Shown here one piece after another: positions 1 to 46,180 of a DNA stretch of 46,556 nt. The notes below the pieces were generated by a model that was given only the letters and a program-made list of their open reading frames with translations, was not told the origin of the DNA and made no database searches. The position numbers were made by a program, and so were the translations under genes. Positions within the stretch are counted from its first letter, which is position 1. Every line of letters begins with the position of its first letter. Location of the stretch: assembly GCA_021797675.1 (NCBI GenBank), contig JAJZZH010000213.1, positions 1 through 46,556 on the forward strand. Reading direction: 5' to 3'. The DNA is from Bacillota bacterium (GTDB lineage Bacteria > Bacillota > Sulfobacillia > Sulfobacillales > Sulfobacillaceae).

Positions 1-392
1 CAGTTGTCCCCATGCTTTGAGGTTATCCTGGGGATTCCTTCCTACCGTCAGTTGTCCCCATGCTTTGAGGTTATCCTGGGGATTCCTTCCTACCGTCAGT
101 TGTCCCCATGCTTTGGGGTTATCCCGGGGATTCCTTCCTACCGTCAGTTGTCCCCATGCTTTGGGGTTATCCTGGGGATTCCTTCCTACCGTCAGTTGTC
201 CCCATGCTTTGAGGTTATCCTGGGGATTCCTTCCTACCGTCAGTTGTCCCCATGCTTTGAGGTTATCCTGGGGATTCCTTCCTACCGTCAGTTGTCCCCA
301 TGCTTTGGGGTTATCCTGGGCATTCCTTCCTACCGTCAGTTGTCCCCATGCTTTGGGGTTATCCTGGGCATTCCTTCCTACCGTCAGTTGTC
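1..392. repeat. 48-bp tandem repeat array, 8 copies plus a partial ninth
   Basis: Units start at 1, 49, 97, 145, 193, 241, 289 and 337, and an 8-base partial copy begins at 385. The array probably continues upstream of the window. Each unit contains TCCCCA and TGGGGA arms about 16 nt apart that could form a hairpin. Variants come in pairs: copies 1-2 and 5-6 read TTTGAGG, copies 3-4 and 7-8 read TTTGGGG, and copies 7-8 also read GGGC for GGGG. Because 48 is a multiple of three, all plus frames stay open through the array. I read it as a non-coding minisatellite, not a 16-residue protein repeat. Confidence 0.95.
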
Positions 393-645
393 GCCGGAAG
401 GAAACCAGAGTACAGAGACGGGTTGCCTCGGAACCCTTCGATGAAGGAAATGACACACGGCACCGGCAGGACTTTTGAAGTCGCGCCCCCCTGGCGGAAG
501 GGTCTGTGGCAAGAGATTGTCACGGGATCCCGTGGTGGCTTCGGAAGAGCGAACAATTCCAGACGTGCTTGAGAATGCGGAGATCGGTGAGGTTTCTCCG
601 TAGAGATGCGTAGATATGCTTAAGCACGTTATAGCGGGACCGCCC
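393..645. other. Spacer without recognisable gene
   Basis: Only short overlapping open frames on both strands, with no recognisable protein and no clear ribosome binding site. It separates the 48-bp array from the palindrome cluster. Confidence 0.5.
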
Positions 646-854
646 GTTTCGATGTCGAAACCGGTCTGAGATCGAGTCCTGCCGCATTGCCCGGATGACG
701 TGGCTGTACGGAGGGGCTGGGGTTTCGATATCGAAACCCCGGCCGCACGTGATTCGGCGGTTCGCCATGTCGGTCGCGGTTTCGACGTCGAAACCCGCCC
801 GGCTCCGAGGGCGACATGACCGGTGGAGGGCACTGCCAGTTTGGACGTCGAAAC
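646..854. repeat. Four dispersed TTTCGA..TCGAAA palindromes
   Basis: Three perfect 16-bp palindromes and one near copy lie in 209 bp: GTTTCGATGTCGAAAC at 646-661 (central RY variation), GTTTCGATATCGAAAC at 722-737 (palindrome extends to 719-740), GTTTCGACGTCGAAAC at 779-794 (extends to 778-795) and GTTTGGACGTCGAAAC at 839-854. The core GTTTCGA-N2-TCGAAAC is kept while the sequence between copies is unrelated. Start-to-start spacing is 76, 57 and 60 bp. This looks like a set of protein-binding sites and not a duplicated segment; the binding protein is unknown. Confidence 0.85.
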
Positions 855-889
855 CGACGTGTTGGACCTAGGCCGTGACCAACCCTCCC

Positions 890-915
890 TGCATGGGCCA
901 ATATTGGCCCATGCA
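890..915. repeat. Perfect 26-bp palindrome upstream of tnpA
   Basis: The half-site TGCATGGGCCAAT (890-902) is followed directly by its exact reverse complement at 903-915. It lies about 100 bp before the IS200-type transposase. It may be part of the left end of that element or an independent binding site. Confidence 0.9.
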
Positions 916-1000
916 CCCCCGCTAAACCAAGGAGGTTTGCGGCGCGCACTGCATTACCTGCATTACCCTCCGTCCGTCTTGCGCTGATTCTTGTTCTCGT

Positions 1001-1040
1001 GATATCATTAAGCCACTATGAGTGACAAAGAAATGATATC
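1001..1040 (+). promoter_or_regulatory. Inverted repeat enclosing the tnpA start codon
   Basis: GATATCATT at 1001-1009 and AATGATATC at 1032-1040 are exact reverse complements. In the mRNA they would form a 9-bp stem whose 22-nt loop carries the tnpA ATG (1018). No Shine-Dalgarno sequence is visible before that ATG. IS200 transposase is known to be held at a low level by a 5' mRNA structure that hides the initiation region, so a similar role is plausible here. Confidence 0.55.
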
Positions 1041-1470
1041 GGCCTCTAATGCTGTCTATGCGCTTCGGTTGCATGTCGTCTTTGTGACCAAGTACCGTCG
1101 GAAGATCTTAACGCCGGAGATTCTTGATGCCTTGCGAGAGGCTTTCGCCGAGATTCTCGCCGATTGGCGGTGTACGCTCATTGAATTTGGCGGGGAAGCT
1201 GATCATGTCCGTCTTCTGGTGGGGATCCATCCGGCCCTGAACATCTCCACCCTAATCAACAGTCTCAAATCAGCTAGTTCGCGGAGGATGCGGAACCGGT
1301 TTGCCGATCACTTGCAAAAGTTTTCTCCGAAACCGTACTTTTGGCACCGTGCGTATTACGTCGGGAGCGTCGGAGAGACCTCCTTGGATAGGGTGAAGCG
1401 CTATGTCGAGGCCCAAGGGACGAAAGAAAGACCGCGCAAGGCGGCCAAGAATCCGCCGCCGCCCGCTTGA
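1018..1470 (+). CDS. tnpA: IS200/IS605-family Y1 transposase (TnpA)
   Basis: The 150-residue protein has the layout of IS200-type single-strand transposases: an N-terminal strand followed by YRRKIL, the metal-binding segment GGEADHVRLLV, the helix segment INSLKSASSRRMR, the YYVGSVGETSLD segment and a C-terminal RYVEAQG with the candidate catalytic tyrosine. The second histidine of the expected HUH motif is an arginine (His-Val-Arg, codons CAT GTC CGT), one base from a histidine codon. That could impair metal binding, so activity is uncertain. The start at 1018 lies inside a predicted stem-loop. The last residues (KNPPPPA) are low-complexity. Family assignment is secure; function is not. Confidence 0.88.
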   Translation: MSDKEMISASNAVYALRLHVVFVTKYRRKILTPEILDALREAFAEILADWRCTLIEFGGEADHVRLLVGIHPALNISTLINSLKSASSRRMRNRFADHLQKFSPKPYFWHRAYYVGSVGETSLDRVKRYVEAQGTKERPRKAAKNPPPPA

Positions 1471-1471
1471 C

Positions 1472-1496
1472 CCCCTCTCGGCTATCACCGAAGGGG
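1472..1496 (+). repeat. Bulged hairpin, probable right end of the IS200-like element
   Basis: CCCCT (1472-1476), a bulged C (1477) and TCGG (1478-1481) pair with CCGA (1488-1491) and AGGGG (1492-1496) around the loop CTATCA. It begins just after the tnpA stop codon. Right-end hairpins with a single unpaired base are typical of IS200/IS605 elements. It could also act as a terminator, but no T-run follows. Confidence 0.6.
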
Positions 1497-1500
1497 AATG

Positions 1501-2147
1501 CGCGGTCATTATGTTCCAAACCGCAATGCGGCGCCGAGCTCACGCGAACACGTTAATGCGGTGAAACGCCGTATCAGCCCCTCAGCTCCTACCCAGCGGC
1601 CGATCGGTCCGGGTGCGGGAGCCTCATCCACAGCCCCTGCCGCTGATGCCTGCGGCCTCGGGGCCACCCAGCTCAAGTACCAGCCCGGATCCGCCGGCTG
1701 AACGTCCTGAACCAACGCATACGGCGACCATCACGGCGCTCGATGAAGCCATGGGCGATACCCAGACACCTTACATCCCCTTGAAACCCACGCCTGATGA
1801 CCTGTGGACAAACAGCTCTCCAGCCTGATCCACCTTCTTGAGCTGCTCAAATCTCGCCCACGCCCGGATCAGCGGTTGGCTCACCGCGCTGTTTTTCATC
1901 CCGACGGTGCGGGATCACCGCGAGGGATTTCCGGCGATGAAACCGGCATTGACCAACCTGGAATACTTGAACCAGGACTGGGCGACCGGCGAACTGAAGC
2001 TTAGCGTCTACGCACTTTGTAGTGTACGGCCCATGCCCGCCATTCTGGCGTGGTCCACGTTGTCCAAACGCCGCATGCACTGTCCAACTGCCGGCGCGTA
2101 CGCCTCTTCGCCCGAGCAGCCGCGTCGAGACTTGAATCCGTCTCAAG
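1501..2147. other. About 650 bp without recognisable gene
   Basis: Open frames on both strands overlap and give proline- and arginine-rich translations without recognisable domains. A plus frame at about 1838-2150 has a fairly protein-like middle (about 60 residues) but no ribosome binding site and no match I can name. It may be eroded coding sequence between the insertion element and the convergent glycosyltransferase gene. Confidence 0.4.
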
Positions 2148-3341
2148 TTACGGTTGTTTTGCGTTGCGGAAGAACGGATAGGCAAGGTATGGCCTTTTCC
2201 GCCCGACCGCCGTGTTTCGCTTGGCGTTTGGCGGAACCCCCCATTGCTCACCGGAAATCTGCACCTCATCCATCAGCCGGTGGTACTCGACCACTGCCTT
2301 CGCCACGACGCCCGACCAGGTGAAACGTTGTGCACGGGCAAGGCCCATGTGCCTGAGATGGGTTCGCAAGCTTGGTTCAAACAAGATTCGTCGGATGCCT
2401 GAAGCAATACTCAAAACATCGGTGGGATCGACATATACGACCGCATCTCCGGCGAGCTCGGGCAGCGAAGACACGTCGGAGGCCAACACCGGTGTGCCGC
2501 ACTGCATCGCCTCCAAGACCGGCAACCCCAACCCTTCGTAAAGCGACGGAAAGAGGAGCGCCTCGGTTCGATTGTACAGGCCTAACAGTTGAGACTTCGT
2601 CACCTGACCTACGAAATGCACGGAACCAGCCCGCCCCTGCCGATCTGCTATACGACGCAGATCATCTTGCAACGCTTGATACGCGCCGCTCGTAAAAACC
2701 AATTGGTAGTCTTCCGCCGCGTCACGGGTTGCGATACAGAAAGCCTCGACCGTACGGTCGGCATTTTTGCGAAAATCGGCCGGATTGAACGCGAGCACGA
2801 AGGGTTTGTCCGTCGGAAAGCCTTTGGGCAGTGCGTTAAGGCTGATGTCCTTGCGGGGGAAAAAGCATTGGTCGGTCCCCGTACCGATGTTGACGATTTT
2901 ATTCGGATCAAATCCGGCATCAATAAAATCTGTCCGTGTGTTTTCCGAAATCGCCAGCAGACGATGGGCATGACGCAGGACTTGCAGTTTTTGATGGTAT
3001 TGTGCCTTATTCTCGTCGGCCGGCAGGTAGACGTCCGGATATTTGAGCGGGATCGTGTCATAGACGGTAGCGACCAACCGAACCGGCGGCAACGTATACG
3101 AAATAAACGCTTCTAAGGGCGTTTCTGCCGGAGTGGTCAAATGAAATATATCGAGATTGTTGGCCAAAATGAAGTGAGATAATGCCTGTACATACCCTTG
3201 GCTCGTCGGATCCGCGTGCAACAGGAACAGATCCACATCAGGGTGTTCTGCCAGATGGCTTACGAACCCGAACGAATAATTTCCTATGCCTACGGCCGCC
3301 GAAGGACCTTGTGAGAATATCGTGTCCATCCCCACTCGCAT
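2148..3341 (-). CDS. Glycosyltransferase family 4, GT-B fold
   Basis: This 397-residue cytoplasmic glycosyltransferase would transfer a sugar from a nucleotide-sugar donor onto a glycan or lipid-linked acceptor. The N-terminal acceptor domain begins MRVGMDTI and carries a glycine-rich loop (SAAVGIGNYS). The C-terminal Glycos_transf_1 domain contains FNPADFRKNADRTVEAF and the donor-site block LLFPSLYEGLGLPVLEAMQC followed by GTPVLASDVSSLPELAG; its E-x7-E motif is the GT4 hallmark. The roughly 50-residue tail after the domain (VQISGEQWGV onward) is unlike the family. It starts 28 bp after the end of the other GT4 gene on the same strand, so the two are probably co-transcribed. The acceptor is unknown; surface polysaccharide synthesis is inferred from the pairing and the epimerase stub upstream. 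Confidence 0.88.
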   Translation of the reverse strand: MRVGMDTIFSQGPSAAVGIGNYSFGFVSHLAEHPDVDLFLLHADPTSQGYVQALSHFILANNLDIFHLTTPAETPLEAFISYTLPPVRLVATVYDTIPLKYPDVYLPADENKAQYHQKLQVLRHAHRLLAISENTRTDFIDAGFDPNKIVNIGTGTDQCFFPRKDISLNALPKGFPTDKPFVLAFNPADFRKNADRTVEAFCIATRDAAEDYQLVFTSGAYQALQDDLRRIADRQGRAGSVHFVGQVTKSQLLGLYNRTEALLFPSLYEGLGLPVLEAMQCGTPVLASDVSSLPELAGDAVVYVDPTDVLSIASGIRRILFEPSLRTHLRHMGLARAQRFTWSGVVAKAVVEYHRLMDEVQISGEQWGVPPNAKRNTAVGRKRPYLAYPFFRNAKQP

Positions 3342-3369
3342 AATGTTCGCCCTGCCCCCTTCTCCTCAA

Positions 3370-4485
3370 CTACTTTTGTCGAATGCTTTGGCCAACAATA
3401 GCCTCGATGGCCTGAACAAACTCTACGCCCGTGCGCCGCCAATTCCAGCCCTCGGCCACCTGCCGCCCGTGTTGCCCCTTTCGCTTGGCCTCATCGCGCT
3501 GCAGGTAGACGCGCCGCATAACGTTTTGCAGAGCTCCTACGTCGGCCTCGGCCCACAACTGATCCGGCTGGTACAAATCGGTATACCAGACCGGATGGGC
3601 CGGCACCAGTCGATAGGGAAGTAAGTAGCCGCTTTGGGGACCGAGAAACGTGATGTGTCCCCCCCATCCGGTGGCAATCACCGGGAGCCCGCTGGCCATG
3701 CTTTCCAAGTACGGCAGTCCAATCGCTTCGCCCCGGGACGGCAGCACGAAGCAGTCCGATCCCCGATATAACATGGCGACCTCCTCCGGCGACAGATCGT
3801 CGGCAATGATCTGAACATCAGGGGGGCTGGGGTTATCTATCTGACGAGCGATCCTTTCATACCATTCGCTAGGCAGCTGTGCAATATTTCCGCCGTGCGT
3901 CTTGAGAACCAGGCGTACCGGGTCGGTGGCGTTGAACTCCCTTAGAAAAGCTTGAATTAATATGTCGGGCCCTTTTCTATCGGACCACCCAAAGATGGAG
4001 AGAAACACAAATTGCCCCGTACTTCGGCCTAACTCACGGGCCGGCCCCTCGGGGGTAAATAACCGGGAGTCAACCCCATAATGCGCGACATAAATGGGCA
4101 CGGTGACGCCGCCGTCTCTGAACAGCTGACGATTCATTTCGCTGGGAACAATCACCGCGTCACACTGGTTACAAATCGACACGTAACTTGGAGGAGCTTT
4201 TGACGTTTCAAACATCGTGCAGGAAATGACCTTGCGGTAGGTTCCTGGACTGCCGACCGGGTGGAGGGCGAGCAATAGGCGATCGTTGTTCAGGGGTTTT
4301 TGTTGCATGCGCTCAAGACGTCGCAGGGTCGACGCGCTTAAATGATTAGACCTACCGCCGCCCATGACCTCCAATTTTACGTCGACGCCCAAATCTTCCA
4401 TGGCGAACGCAATCTCTCGGGCGGCAGTGCCAAACCCCGAGGGCTCATACAGCACATGTTGAAATACCACCTGCACCTCATTCAC
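3370..4485 (-). CDS. Glycosyltransferase family 4, second of pair
   Basis: A 371-residue GT4 enzyme from a GTG start at 4485, chosen because GGAAGG lies 7 bp upstream and homologous sequence begins there (VNEVQVVFQHVLYEPSGFG). The reading frame is open for 52 or more further codons upstream, but that part resembles the tail of another protein family (see 4489-4698). Visible motifs are the acceptor-domain glycine loop PSGFGTAAREIA, the donor-domain start FVFLSIFGWSDRKGPDILI, and the E-x7-E region SRGEAIGLPYLESMASG followed by PVIATGWGG. Like its neighbour it probably builds a surface glycan. A real fusion with the upstream stub cannot be excluded, because no stop codon separates them. Confidence 0.85.
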   Translation of the reverse strand: MNEVQVVFQHVLYEPSGFGTAAREIAFAMEDLGVDVKLEVMGGGRSNHLSASTLRRLERMQQKPLNNDRLLLALHPVGSPGTYRKVISCTMFETSKAPPSYVSICNQCDAVIVPSEMNRQLFRDGGVTVPIYVAHYGVDSRLFTPEGPARELGRSTGQFVFLSIFGWSDRKGPDILIQAFLREFNATDPVRLVLKTHGGNIAQLPSEWYERIARQIDNPSPPDVQIIADDLSPEEVAMLYRGSDCFVLPSRGEAIGLPYLESMASGLPVIATGWGGHITFLGPQSGYLLPYRLVPAHPVWYTDLYQPDQLWAEADVGALQNVMRRVYLQRDEAKRKGQHGRQVAEGWNWRRTGVEFVQAIEAIVGQSIRQK

Positions 4486-4488
4486 CCG

Positions 4489-4698
4489 CCTTCCGCTCGT
4501 GATCCCCAAATCGCCCAACCACCGATCGGCCAGTGTTTGGTCCAGCGACATTTCTGGTCGCCATCCGGTCTGCTCGACAAATTTGGTCGCGTCGACTGTT
4601 GGCCCACATATCTTGTGGAGCATTCGATGATGTTGGGACAAAGCTCTGCGCTGCTCGGTGACTTCCCACCACTTCCGTAATACCGGTACCCAAGGCGC
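4489..4698 (-). pseudogene. C-terminal stub of a sugar-nucleotide epimerase/dehydratase
   Basis: In frame with, and directly upstream of, the GT4 start, the translation reads ICGPTVDATKFVEQTGWRP followed by EMSLDQTLADRW. This is the characteristic C-terminus of extended short-chain dehydrogenases such as GDP-mannose 4,6-dehydratase and related NAD-dependent epimerases: a D-x2-K segment, then TGWxPE, then the L-xx-TL-xD helix. Only about 65 codons survive, bounded upstream by a TGA at 4699-4701. The Rossmann domain is absent. An ancestral epimerase-GT4-GT4 operon probably lost the rest of this gene by deletion. Confidence 0.6.
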
Positions 4699-4899
4699 TC
4701 AAAGTTCCTTCACTCCTCGTGACAACGTTGCGGTCTGCGTCTTTTCCCAAGAGCATGCCAGGATGGCTGCCGCCTCTGGCTGGCAATCGTGGCCATCCTG
4801 GCGCCGGTTCCAAGGCTCGTAACCGCATCCCTGATGGTTCAACCGGCGGTTTGGGTGCGTTGCCCCAGAATTCTACGGTGCTTTTGGGGCGCGGAACGA

Positions 4900-5699
4900 C
4901 CAGGGCATTGGCGCTTTCGAAGTCGCGGTCGGTCTGGCCGCGCTTGCATGCGTCTCGCTCAGAGACTTCAGCTGGCTTGTCGGGACCTCCTCGAAAACCA
5001 TATTCCCGGCCGAATCCAAAACGGTGATAGGGACTGACCCGGAATGTTGGCCATCCGGGTCTGGCGATCAATAAAGCGGCATTGACCGATTCAAAGGGCA
5101 TCCATCCATCCATCCCAGGAGGCGGTCAGCACCATGCCGGCTCCCGCCTCAATGGCGGCCAGGGTAGCCCCCACCCCGCCCAGGGGAAAGAAGGAATAGG
5201 AATGGATCAGACAGGCCTCCCAGGGCGTGCCAAGGGAGGTGAAAGGCCTCTGATAGAGAAGCTCAGCACCCTCCATGTGCTCAGCTGGGCTGCCGAAAGC
5301 TTCGTCCATTTCCCTGTCCGAGGCGCATGCGAACCAGGGTTTGAGCGTGGGCAGCGCGGATCGCAGGGATTCGAGACGTTCGGTCAAATCCCTGTCGAAC
5401 CGCCGCGCCGCCGGGGCATGCCCCATCCGCGGCTCCCCGTCCCTGGGCGTTGGGTGGGGGTTTCGTGGGCACCGCACCGCCCCCGGCTGGCCGCCGGCGA
5501 AGCGCAGGGTCCCCACCCAAAGACGGTCGGGGGTTAAATAGGCCACGACATTCTTGGCCCGGGTGCCTGCGTGTTGCGACCTCCGTGCCAAGCGGCCGGG
5601 CCTGCGTTGGTTGGTCTTCGCCTCCATTACCGCCGTCTTCTCCGATTGGGTGTGGGCCCAGTCGGTCCATACGCGGCCCGAAGTCAAAACGTTCGTCAT
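4900..5699 (-). pseudogene. Unrecognised ORF interrupted at a GGAT tetranucleotide tract
   Basis: A frame beginning ATG at 5699 runs 202 codons and ends at a TGA (5091-5093). A four-copy GGAT tract on this strand (5100-5115) lies just before the stop. Losing one tetranucleotide would join SWDGWM to PFESVNAALLIARPGWP in the next frame, which stays open for a further 190 codons. The middle part (RRFDRDLTERLESLRSALP, then a hydrophobic stretch SYSFFPLGGVGATLAAIEAG) looks protein-like, while both ends are arginine- and proline-rich. I recognise no family and see no good ribosome binding site. It could be a decayed gene or chance open frame in GC-rich DNA. Confidence 0.25.
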
Positions 5700-6230
5700 G
5701 GGTGCTCACTCACATTCTCGACGTATTTTGGCGGGAGCGGGCGAAGCTTTCTTATCCTATTCAAATCGTTCTCGGCATGCGCCGAACGCACCAAATATTC
5801 GTGGCTCAAGGCGGGATTAGACATCGGAGCAGAGAGTGCAGAAATGATTGAGCGACCGGCATGCCTACCCGATCACCGAAAACGTTGGCGGTGCTGACGG
5901 AACCCCCATCGCCCAACGCACGGTGCCAGGGGGAATCAACGGTGCCAGAGGGAATCAACGGTGCCAGAGGGAATCAAGCGAAGGATATCCGATGGCTCGG
6001 CGAAAGTCCCGAAGGACGATGAGGATTGTGGGGCTGGGAGCCGTACCCGGCGCTAAACTGACCCTCGAGGGCGTACCAGAACCGAGCACGAATCGTCGGA
6101 ACGGCCCGCGTCCTGGGCCATTCAGCAATTGGCGGGGACGAATCTATTCAGGACGCTTCTTGCTGCCGCCAGCTTGGTTCGCCCGGGCCACCTTGGCCAG
6201 TCCGGGATCATCCGCAACTTGCGGACCGAG
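5700..6230. other. Gene-poor spacer before the sulfur cluster
   Basis: No convincing coding sequence. A plus frame at 5848-6267 spans the 19-bp triplication and has no recognisable domain. The segment becomes AT-richer towards 6230, where the dyad cluster in front of the ArsR-type gene begins. Confidence 0.4.
5921..5977. repeat. 19-bp tandem repeat, three copies
   Basis: The unit CGGTGCCAGAGGGAATCAA occurs at 5921-5939 (one A-to-G change), 5940-5958 and 5959-5977. It lies in non-coding sequence. Confidence 0.9.
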
Positions 6231-39503: not shown

Positions 39504-41738
39504 ATGCCCTCACCCGATCCGACCAAGGAAAAGCGCTCGATCAAAACGCTCGACGGGCAGTTGCTCAAAATCCGGTATCGTCATCCGAATGGCTGGTGTA
39601 TCGGCCAAGCTCTGCTGGACAATGCGTCTGAAACCGTGGTGGGAGAACTTATCGAGATCCCATTGCGCAAGCCGCAGATCTTTTACGGCTACTGGGAGAC
39701 GCATCCCAAGTACGGCCCGCAATTTCACGTACAGGCCGCCCGCTCTCCCGAGCCCTTGGCGGGCCCAGGGATGGTGCGCTATCTGGCCACCGCGCGGTGT
39801 CCGCATTTGGGTCCCAAAACCGCGAAAAAATTGGCCGAGGCCTTTGATGCCGAAACTCTGCAGATTCTGCGGACGGATCCGGAGCGCGTGGCCGTCCTCC
39901 CCGGGGTCAGCTTGGACCGGGCCCGGCAATGGCAGCAATTCTTCGTGGATCAGCAAGGTGCTGACGACATCATCGTATGGCTGCTCCAGTGGGATATCGA
40001 CCCTGCGGTCGCTCGCCGTCTGTATGCGGACTACGGGGCGGGGGCGATGGAGCGCGTTCGGGCCAATCCGTATACGCTGACCCAAGACACCTGGGGCGTT
40101 GGCTTTCGTACGGCCGATCGGATGGCCGTGTCGATGGGCTGGGGTCCGCTCAGTCCCGAGCGGTTGGAGGCAGTCTGGCGTTTTGGCTTGGAGACCGCCT
40201 TGAATCAAGGGGACTGCTATCAGACGACCGATCAACTGACCGAGCAGGGGGTGGCATTACTCGATGATCAGGATGGGGAAGCGGTGCGGAAGGCCCTCGC
40301 GGACATCCGTGAGCGGCTGGGTCGGTTGCCCGATGTCGTGTCCGACAACGATCGATGGCGCCTGAACTGGGTGCATCGTCTGGAAGTACGGTTGGCCACG
40401 GCCTTGCGAAACCATCCGACCGCACAGACCAATGCCGCACCGGTGGACTGGGCATGGCTCGAAACGCAGACCGGGGTGACGTATGCCGGTGCGCAGCGCG
40501 ATGGATTGGCCGGCGCGCTGAACGCCCCGTTTAGCATCATCACCGGGGGCCCGGGTACCGGCAAGACCACGATCCTCAATGGTTTGCTCGCCTGGTTGAT
40601 TCGACGTGAGGGCGTACGCCCCAACCGCATTGCCCTCGCCGCCCCCACAGCTCGGGCAGCCCAACGCATGACGGCGTTGACCGGGCATGACGCTCAGACG
40701 ATTCACCGGCTGTTAAACTGGAGTCCCGCGGAACGGGGATTCACCAAAACGGCGGACAATCCGGTTGAGGCCGACTGGCTAATCATCGACGAGGTGTCCA
40801 TGGTGGACCTGCCGTTGGCGCACGCGCTCTGGCAAGCCACCGCTCCGACCACCCAGGTCCTGTGGATTGGCGACGAGCATCAGCTGCCCTCAGTGGGACC
40901 CGGCAGCATCCTCAAAGACGTCATTCAGAGCGGACGATTCCCCGTCTTTCGGCTGACCCAGAATTTCCGCTCGACCTCAGGGATTACGGTGGCGGCGCAC
41001 GATCTGCTGGCGAACCGGGTTCCGAAATCCAACGCCGATGTGACGATCGTTCGTTACGACAAGGGCGTGGATAAACGAGGGGTGCAACAGGAGCTGGTCG
41101 AACAGATTCGGCAATTGCATCAGCACGGGACGCCCTGGGACGCTATTCAGGTGTTGACGCCAATTCGCCGCGGACTGCTCGGCACGGACGGGCTCAACCC
41201 GCTGTTGCGGGATCTGATGAATCCAGAACGTTCGGGGCAACCGCAGTTTACCGCGAAAGGCGGTCTCGTGTTTCGGGAAGGCGACCGGCTGATGCAGACT
41301 AAGAACGCGTATAGCAAGAACGTGTTCAATGGCGACATGGGCGTCGTCGTGGCGATTCGTCCCGATCTGGCCGAGGACGACGATGACGATCGGCTGTGGG
41401 TGCAATTCCCGGATCAAACGGTGGGGTTTTCAACCGACGAGGCGCAGATGCTTCGCTTGGCCTATGCCACCACCGTGCACAAATCGCAAGGCTCCGAGTA
41501 TCCGATCGTTCTCTTCCCGCTCTTCTACGATGCCTACGTGATGCTGCATCGCAACTTGGTTTACACCGCCCTGACGCGGGCCAAAGAACGTTTGTGGCTG
41601 TACACCGAGGCGGCCGCGTTGTGGCTTGCCCTGCAACGTGGCGACGGAGCCGAGCGACAAACTGGCCTCGTCGAGGCACTGACCATCGAGAACCATTCAT
41701 CTGAAAATATGGTCGAAAGGCCCGCTTCCCAGCGCTGA
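39504..41738 (+). CDS. recD2: RecD2-like DNA helicase
   Basis: A 744-residue superfamily 1 helicase from ATG 39504 with GGAAAGGAG upstream. The N-terminal part has an OB-like segment (SIKTLDGQLLKIRYRHPNGW) and helix-hairpin-helix segments (ARCPHLGPKTAKKLAEAFDAE; VLPGVSLDRARQW), as in RecD2 proteins, which work without RecBC. The ATPase core has Walker A GGPGTGKTT near residue 348, Walker B LIIDEVSMVDLPL near 430, LWIGDEHQLPSVGPGS, LTQNFRST, and the C-terminal TTVHKSQGSEYPIVLFPL with the final ALTRAKERLWLYTE. It probably unwinds DNA 5' to 3' in repair. It interrupts the sugar genes and has no functional link to them. Confidence 0.93.
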   Translation: MPSPDPTKEKRSIKTLDGQLLKIRYRHPNGWCIGQALLDNASETVVGELIEIPLRKPQIFYGYWETHPKYGPQFHVQAARSPEPLAGPGMVRYLATARCPHLGPKTAKKLAEAFDAETLQILRTDPERVAVLPGVSLDRARQWQQFFVDQQGADDIIVWLLQWDIDPAVARRLYADYGAGAMERVRANPYTLTQDTWGVGFRTADRMAVSMGWGPLSPERLEAVWRFGLETALNQGDCYQTTDQLTEQGVALLDDQDGEAVRKALADIRERLGRLPDVVSDNDRWRLNWVHRLEVRLATALRNHPTAQTNAAPVDWAWLETQTGVTYAGAQRDGLAGALNAPFSIITGGPGTGKTTILNGLLAWLIRREGVRPNRIALAAPTARAAQRMTALTGHDAQTIHRLLNWSPAERGFTKTADNPVEADWLIIDEVSMVDLPLAHALWQATAPTTQVLWIGDEHQLPSVGPGSILKDVIQSGRFPVFRLTQNFRSTSGITVAAHDLLANRVPKSNADVTIVRYDKGVDKRGVQQELVEQIRQLHQHGTPWDAIQVLTPIRRGLLGTDGLNPLLRDLMNPERSGQPQFTAKGGLVFREGDRLMQTKNAYSKNVFNGDMGVVVAIRPDLAEDDDDDRLWVQFPDQTVGFSTDEAQMLRLAYATTVHKSQGSEYPIVLFPLFYDAYVMLHRNLVYTALTRAKERLWLYTEAAALWLALQRGDGAERQTGLVEALTIENHSSENMVERPASQR

Positions 41739-45169: not shown

Positions 45170-46180
45170 ATGTTGCAGCAGGTGGTGTTGACTGGGATCA
45201 AGCCGACCGGACTCCCCCATTTAGGAAATTTAGTGGGGGCCATTCAACCGGCGATCGCTATGTCCTTGGATAACCAGAAGCGGGCGTTTTATTTCATTGC
45301 CGATTACCATGCGCTAACCACACTCAAAGATGCTCAGTTGCTGAAAGCGTATACCCTGCAAGTGGCAGCGACGTGGATTGCTCTCGGCCTGAATCCCTCG
45401 CGGGTGGTGTTCTATCGGCAGTCCGACGTTCCGGAATTGTTTGAGCTCAGCTGGATCTTGGCCTGCTTTACTCCTAAGGGGCTGATGAACAGAGCCCATG
45501 CGTATAAAGCCAGTGTGCAACGCAATGCAGAAATCGGGGAAGGGGACGTTGACGCCGGGGTCAATGTTGGCCTGTATACCTATCCTGTTTTAATGGCGGC
45601 AGACATTTTGCTCATGCAAACGCACTGGGTTCCGGTTGGCGGGGACCAAGTTCAGCACGTTGAAATTGCGCGGGACATCGCACAATATTTTAACCGCCAA
45701 TATCAACGCGCTGTATTTGTGCTGCCGGAGGCCCTGATCGATAAACAGGGTAGGGTGATTCCCGGAGTCGACGGCCGCAAGATGAGCAAAAGCTACAACA
45801 ATACGATTCCTATTTTTGGCCCGTCGGATGCGTTGCGAAAGCGGATCGTTCGGATTCCCACGGATTCCTCTGCCCCTGGAGAACCTAAGGATCCCGAGAC
45901 GTCCACCATATTCCATCTGTTTCGCTTGGTGGCTACGCCGGAACAAACCGCAGACTTTCACGCACAATTCCTGGCCGGCATTGCCTGGAAAGACGCCAAA
46001 GACCAACTCTTTAGCAGATTGGCCCAGCACTTAGCGGCGCCGCGAGAACGCTACCGCGACTTGGTCAAGGATCCTGCCATGATTGAAGGCATATTGGATC
46101 ACGGGGCGGAGCAGGCCCGCGATTTGGCCCAGGACACCATGCGTCGGGTACGGTTGACCATTGGACAAAATTTGCGATAA
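45170..46180 (+). CDS. trpS: Tryptophanyl-tRNA synthetase
   Basis: A 336-residue class Ic aminoacyl-tRNA synthetase that charges tRNA-Trp with tryptophan using ATP. ATG 45170 follows GAGGTGA. The HIGH-type signature is GIKPTGLPHLGN (residues 9-20), and the KMSKS loop is GRKMSKSYNN with KMSKS at 204-208. Other conserved blocks are FYFIADYHALTTLKD, VFYRQSDVPELFELSWIL, YPVLMAADILLMQTHWVPVG and GGDQVQHVEIARDIA. The length is standard. This is a housekeeping gene at the boundary of the accessory island. Its leader may be truncated by the transposase remnant upstream. Confidence 0.97.
   Translation: MLQQVVLTGIKPTGLPHLGNLVGAIQPAIAMSLDNQKRAFYFIADYHALTTLKDAQLLKAYTLQVAATWIALGLNPSRVVFYRQSDVPELFELSWILACFTPKGLMNRAHAYKASVQRNAEIGEGDVDAGVNVGLYTYPVLMAADILLMQTHWVPVGGDQVQHVEIARDIAQYFNRQYQRAVFVLPEALIDKQGRVIPGVDGRKMSKSYNNTIPIFGPSDALRKRIVRIPTDSSAPGEPKDPETSTIFHLFRLVATPEQTADFHAQFLAGIAWKDAKDQLFSRLAQHLAAPRERYRDLVKDPAMIEGILDHGAEQARDLAQDTMRRVRLTIGQNLR

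Follow-up and report, generated by a model that had tools for sequence, protein, structure and literature searches.

ParABS is a well-known kind of system, in which ParB dimers load at palindromic sites, close as CTP-dependent clamps, slide onto the adjoining DNA and are transported by ParA (PMC13245405). Sites for ParB can occur singly, in clusters or dispersed (PMC5016525); the ParBs of the Streptomyces plasmid SCP1, for example, recognize inverted repeats of 13 bp and 19 bp that surround the operons encoding them (PMC13245405). How such proteins change their DNA specificity has so far been examined mainly in ParB and Noc, where specificity is set by the recognition-helix region (PMC7383237).

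Here we describe a cluster of four palindromes near the left end of a 46,556-nucleotide contig (hereafter, the window) from a draft genome belonging to the family of Sulfobacillus acidophilus. From comparison of sequences we infer that the cluster is very probably a plasmid-type centromere (parS array) bound by ParB. The features concerned are as follows.

646-661, unstranded: palindrome 1, GTTTCGATGTCGAAAC, exact match to GTTTCGANNTCGAAAC; putative ParB-binding site
722-737, unstranded: palindrome 2, GTTTCGATATCGAAAC, exact match; grows to a perfect 22-bp palindrome
779-794, unstranded: palindrome 3, GTTTCGACGTCGAAAC, exact match
839-854, unstranded: palindrome 4, GTTTGGACGTCGAAAC, one mismatch to GTTTCGANNTCGAAAC
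646-854, unstranded: entire cluster, a putative and orphan plasmid-type parS array (centromere); the same or variant arrays adjoin parAB in relatives
389-637, plus strand: left neighbor, one copy of a dispersed repeat that ends sharply on its 3' side (...CACGTTATAGCGG); outside the system, bounding the cluster segment on the left
1018-1470, plus strand: right neighbor, a transposase of the IS200/IS605 family (Y1 type; Pfam Y1_Tnp, 1.8e-36); outside the system

Compared with described systems, the locus resembles the plasmid ParABS systems of type I with an HTH-type ParB (KorB OB of RK2, sopC of F, parS1/parS2 of SCP1) in the repeated palindromic sites that lie near parAB in relatives, and in the proteins encoded there, a ParB with ParB_N and HTH ParB domains and a Walker ParA; it differs from those centromeres in the sequence and length of its palindrome and in the lack of an adjoining parAB. 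Chromosomal parS (TGTTTCACGTGAAACA) is likewise a palindrome bound by ParB and framed by GTT...AAC, but the central half-sites of the window motif differ from it and lie two bases further apart. The parS of RepABC plasmids, GTTNNNNGCNNNNAAC, is also a 16-bp palindrome beginning with GTT and ending with AAC; the window motif instead has a pyrimidine-purine center (TA, TG, CA or CG) rather than GC, and its neighbors are not repABC. Neither the site sequence of the window nor the ParB-linked variants of it described below were found in the literature searched.

An exact-match scan located three perfect sites and one near copy precisely where a sequence-only reading of this DNA had placed them. 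The sites take the form GTTTCGA-YR-TCGAAAC, the central two bases being pyrimidine-purine here and at nearly all sites in relatives. Start-to-start spacings of 76, 57 and 60 bp, showing no helical phase, and flanks that differ among sites outside the 16-letter core (the site at 722 grows to a perfect 22-bp palindrome) bear out the earlier description of unrelated spacers and irregular spacing. The cluster had also been described as free of genes, and the overlapping ORFs indeed yield no Pfam family and no convincing gene over it, the closest being the IS200-like transposase; a search of Rfam with window positions 1-6000 gave no match. Several copies of one palindrome are thus grouped in non-coding DNA, as in plasmid parS arrays.

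The genome in question is a draft of 4,057,591 bp in 242 contigs, 96.6% complete, of which the window is contig C141. All of its exact copies of GTTTCGANNTCGAAAC lie inside the cluster, against an expectation from base composition of about 0.006 per genome, and allowing up to one mismatch adds only a lone site on contig C100. Because exact copies are confined to the cluster, the motif is not one that recurs in many random copies across the genome, the pattern that the sequence-only reading had named as evidence against a binding region. When the window was shuffled 60 times, only one shuffle had any palindrome with 6-bp arms in three copies within 300 bp, and three copies within 1.5 kb were found in none of the 40 control segments (320 kb in total); shuffling and control sequence both support a non-random origin of the cluster.

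Among the 101 genomes searched for arrays of the 16-mer (this one and 100 relatives), exact arrays occurred in this genome and in two relatives, G021 and G028, with a lone site in a third, G004; the last contains plasmid CP003180.1 of S. acidophilus DSM 10332, with 100% identity across the compared 8 kb. G021 carries 10 exact copies over two contigs, and G028 four exact and four near copies. In both genomes an array follows the 3' end of a minus-strand parB gene that belongs to a parA-parB operon: about 230 bp away in G028 (array at 1323-1960 of locus L019, parB at 2185-3366) and about 430 bp away in G021 (array at 1301-2221 of L020, parB at 2655-3824). The neighbors comprise a ParB (ParB_N and HTH_ParB), a ParA (AAA_31) and a protein with an HTH_36 domain, possibly a replication initiator; G021 additionally encodes a small HTH protein of the excisionase type. 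Identity between the two ParBs is 58%. The second array of G021, on contig C53, adjoins a reading frame that looks, by eye, like a truncated integrase, rather than parB.

A search of 34 genomes of the family for plasmid-type ParBs identified seven further proteins of intermediate similarity, four of which adjoin arrays of palindromes that are related to the window motif but differ from it, and three of which show no array by the same test. Arrays of GTTCCGANNTCGGAAC flank both sides of the operon encoding the ParBs of G016 (eight sites) and G029 (six sites), an array of 12 GTTTAGANTCTAAAC sites lies beside a ParB of G014, and one of six TGTTCAACNGTTGAACA sites beside a ParB of G008. In total, six of nine plasmid-type ParB regions bear an array compared with none of 40 controls of similar length (Fisher p = 6e-6, a nominal value because the nine ParBs are not phylogenetically independent). 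Of the options raised at the outset, which also included an operator array and a recombination site, a plasmid or phage partition site is favored by this arraying of the same or a variant palindrome beside parA-parB in related genomes, the association expected of a plasmid centromere. ParBs with a common motif also have a common recognition-helix region (HKGKTHVS in G021 and G028; HKSPAYLS in G016 and G029), and other sequences occupy it in G014 and G008. Across these four motif classes, which comprise few cases, the pattern is suggestive of a site sequence that changes jointly with the DNA-binding domain of ParB. At the GTTCCGANNTCGGAAC sites of G016 and G029 (L059 3755-9014, L058 4989-9249), the outer flanks vary between sites yet are self-complementary, forming perfect palindromes of up to 36 bp, with the first six flank positions complementary at 50-88% compared with 25% expected; this complementarity suggests a potential for hairpins or cruciforms.

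Other collections provided no closer counterpart. A search of 398 genomes of the phylum for the paired motif, within a limited allowed spacing that leaves arrays of the G021 type outside it, returned this genome only, and the paired motif had no match in viral contigs. Plasmid records gave no match to the cluster and only distant relatives of the ParB. The 80 loci of ParB relatives in viral contigs included none with the window motif, and the repeated palindromes present at ten of these look unrelated.

Extrapolating from established ParABS biology (PMC13245405, PMC5016525), we infer how such an array may operate. Each GTTTCGA-YR-TCGAAAC palindrome would be a loading site for one ParB dimer, the loaded ParB would spread along the flanking DNA, and a ParA ATPase would move it, with the array-bearing replicons thereby shared out at cell division. 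Several irregularly spaced sites fit ParB loading because loading needs no fixed geometry between sites. The sequences described offer a testable site for a plasmid partition family of Sulfobacillus-type acidophiles, and the arrays could be used as a marker of plasmid-derived contigs in draft genomes.

In the window itself the cluster is an orphan between two repeated elements. No parAB was found on the contig, and the gene for a DNA-binding protein that the sequence-only reading had proposed to look for is absent from it. An orthologue of the G028 ParB or ParA was likewise not found elsewhere in the draft, where matches are limited to a chromosomal pair on contig C67 and a distant ParB on C175. 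We considered the C175 protein as the cognate ParB and rejected it: its orthologues adjoin no arrays, and its aligned identity with the G021 ParB is only about 23%. Because parA-parB was not found in the draft, we classify the locus as a parS-type array and not as a complete ParABS system. To the left, the dispersed repeat, about 250 bp long, occurs at least twelve times in this genome and has further copies in G001, G006, G010, G014 and G025; it may be the end of an element of the IS200/IS605 type, or a non-coding RNA of such an element. The cluster begins 9 bp past its 3' boundary. Since every copy examined continues differently past that boundary, the palindromes do not belong to the repeat. 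To the right, the transposase scores 125.9 bits with the NCBIfam transpos_IS200 model (cut-off 55). Within about 40 bp of the cluster on this side, ahead of the transposase gene, is a perfect 26-bp palindrome, TGCATGGGCCAATATTGGCCCATGCA, at 890-915, possibly the left-end structure of the transposase element; the stretch at 1420-1516 is found again elsewhere in the genome. The contig begins with a 48-bp unit repeated 8.2 times (positions 1-392, 98% matches), which runs into the dispersed repeat. Its part at about 23.5-44.7 kb is 73-83% identical to small contigs from G001, the sister species, and looks like shared chromosome.

Several observations weigh against reading the cluster as a centromere: the absence of parAB from the contig and of orthologues of the plasmid-type ParB and ParA from the draft, the chromosome-like segment at 23.5-44.7 kb, the lack of an array at three of the nine plasmid-type ParB regions, and an array of the identical 16-mer in a member of the Comamonadaceae that is not near a ParB. 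The last of these, from Comamonadaceae bacterium 2FH (L018 1577-2119), consists of some ten copies of GTTTCGACGTCGAAAC in alternating, near-identical units of 58 and 59 bp, with one more copy about 1 kb away (584-599), ahead of two small genes; with such units and no ParB found nearby, it was set aside as support. We consider it more likely that the array came from a plasmid or integrated element, a piece of which was captured beside IS elements, than that it serves this contig as a centromere.

The best-surviving alternative, which we regard as possible but do not favor, is that the array functions in this strain as a centromere for a plasmid or integrated element whose parAB lies either on an unassembled or unbinned contig missing from the draft or beyond the tandem repeats at the left end. 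The contig does start inside the 48-bp tandem array, which would break the assembly, and the draft, in 242 pieces and 96.6% complete, leaves room for a missing operon; the three perfect sites point to slight decay, and in relatives only a few hundred bases separate array from parB. Against this, what lies within about 250 bp on both sides of the cluster is a repeated element with no par genes, the draft holds no matching ParB or ParA, and the segment at 23.5-44.7 kb resembles chromosome shared within the genus. We think it unlikely that the centromere has been retained on the host chromosome without the corresponding par genes and is bound in trans by a ParB from a plasmid, either resident or incoming; it would then act as a decoy (incompatibility) or, alternatively, let plasmid machinery position chromosomal DNA.

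The two repeated elements that flank the cluster, and a gene for a XerC-like recombinase adjoining the G021 array (L020 6-968), could indicate that the palindromes are recombination sites or parts of the flanking repeats, such as IS200-type ends or REP-like elements. This is very unlikely: other copies of the dispersed repeat have no palindromes past their 3' ends, the transposase falls far below the cut-off of the REP-associated model (26.9 bits versus 80), and no recombinase was identified beside the arrays of G028, G016, G029, G014 and G008, where parAB is constant.

A further reading, that the array is the organism's own chromosomal parS or a Noc-type site, draws on the site architecture, which is of the ParB-family kind, and on the ParBs of the relatives, whose best match is the nucleoid_noc model; their 97 bits, however, fall short of its cut-off of 315. 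The chromosomal loci largely refute a chromosomal parS already, and we hold the reading as a whole to be most improbable. In this genome the chromosomal parB, on C67, adjoins parA and, by position, an rsmG-like gene, and two copies of TGTTCCTCGAGGAACA lie beside it; almost all of the chromosomal parB loci retrieved across the family (L024, L027, L036-L057) adjoin TGTTCCTYRAGGAACA or a one-base variant, as exemplified by sites at 5885 and 5987 of L027. The 16-mer is absent from the sister species G001. Since the chromosomal parB genes of this genome and of the family carry other sites, the window motif would therefore belong to a different, plasmid-type system. TGTTCCTYRAGGAACA, four bases from the canonical TGTTTCACGTGAAACA, appears to be the chromosomal parS of the Sulfobacillus acidophilus family; the canonical sequence is effectively absent, with only scattered two-mismatch matches and none within two mismatches beside parB.

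An operator bound by a transcription factor for a nearby gene, to which the intergenic position of the palindromes would be suited, is equally improbable given that the next gene is an IS200-like transposase, that four irregular and unphased sites across 209 bp are unlike a simple operator, and that arrays in relatives reach 12 sites and always lie beside parAB.

The half-sites GTTTCGA, GTTCCGA, GTTTAGA and TGTTCAAC, along with TGTTCCTC from the chromosome, form a small natural series paired with ParB recognition helices, with differing spacings between half-sites, that would help to explain how ParB changes its DNA specificity.

Two further features of the contig were observed. A second gene for a tRNA synthetase of the tryptophanyl/tyrosyl type occupies 45170-46180 (the other is on C232) and is 81% identical to the single copy in G021 and G018. 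A RecD2-like helicase encoded at 39504-41738 is 66% identical to another encoded on C175 (L026 1535-3733), beside an orphan ParB gene.
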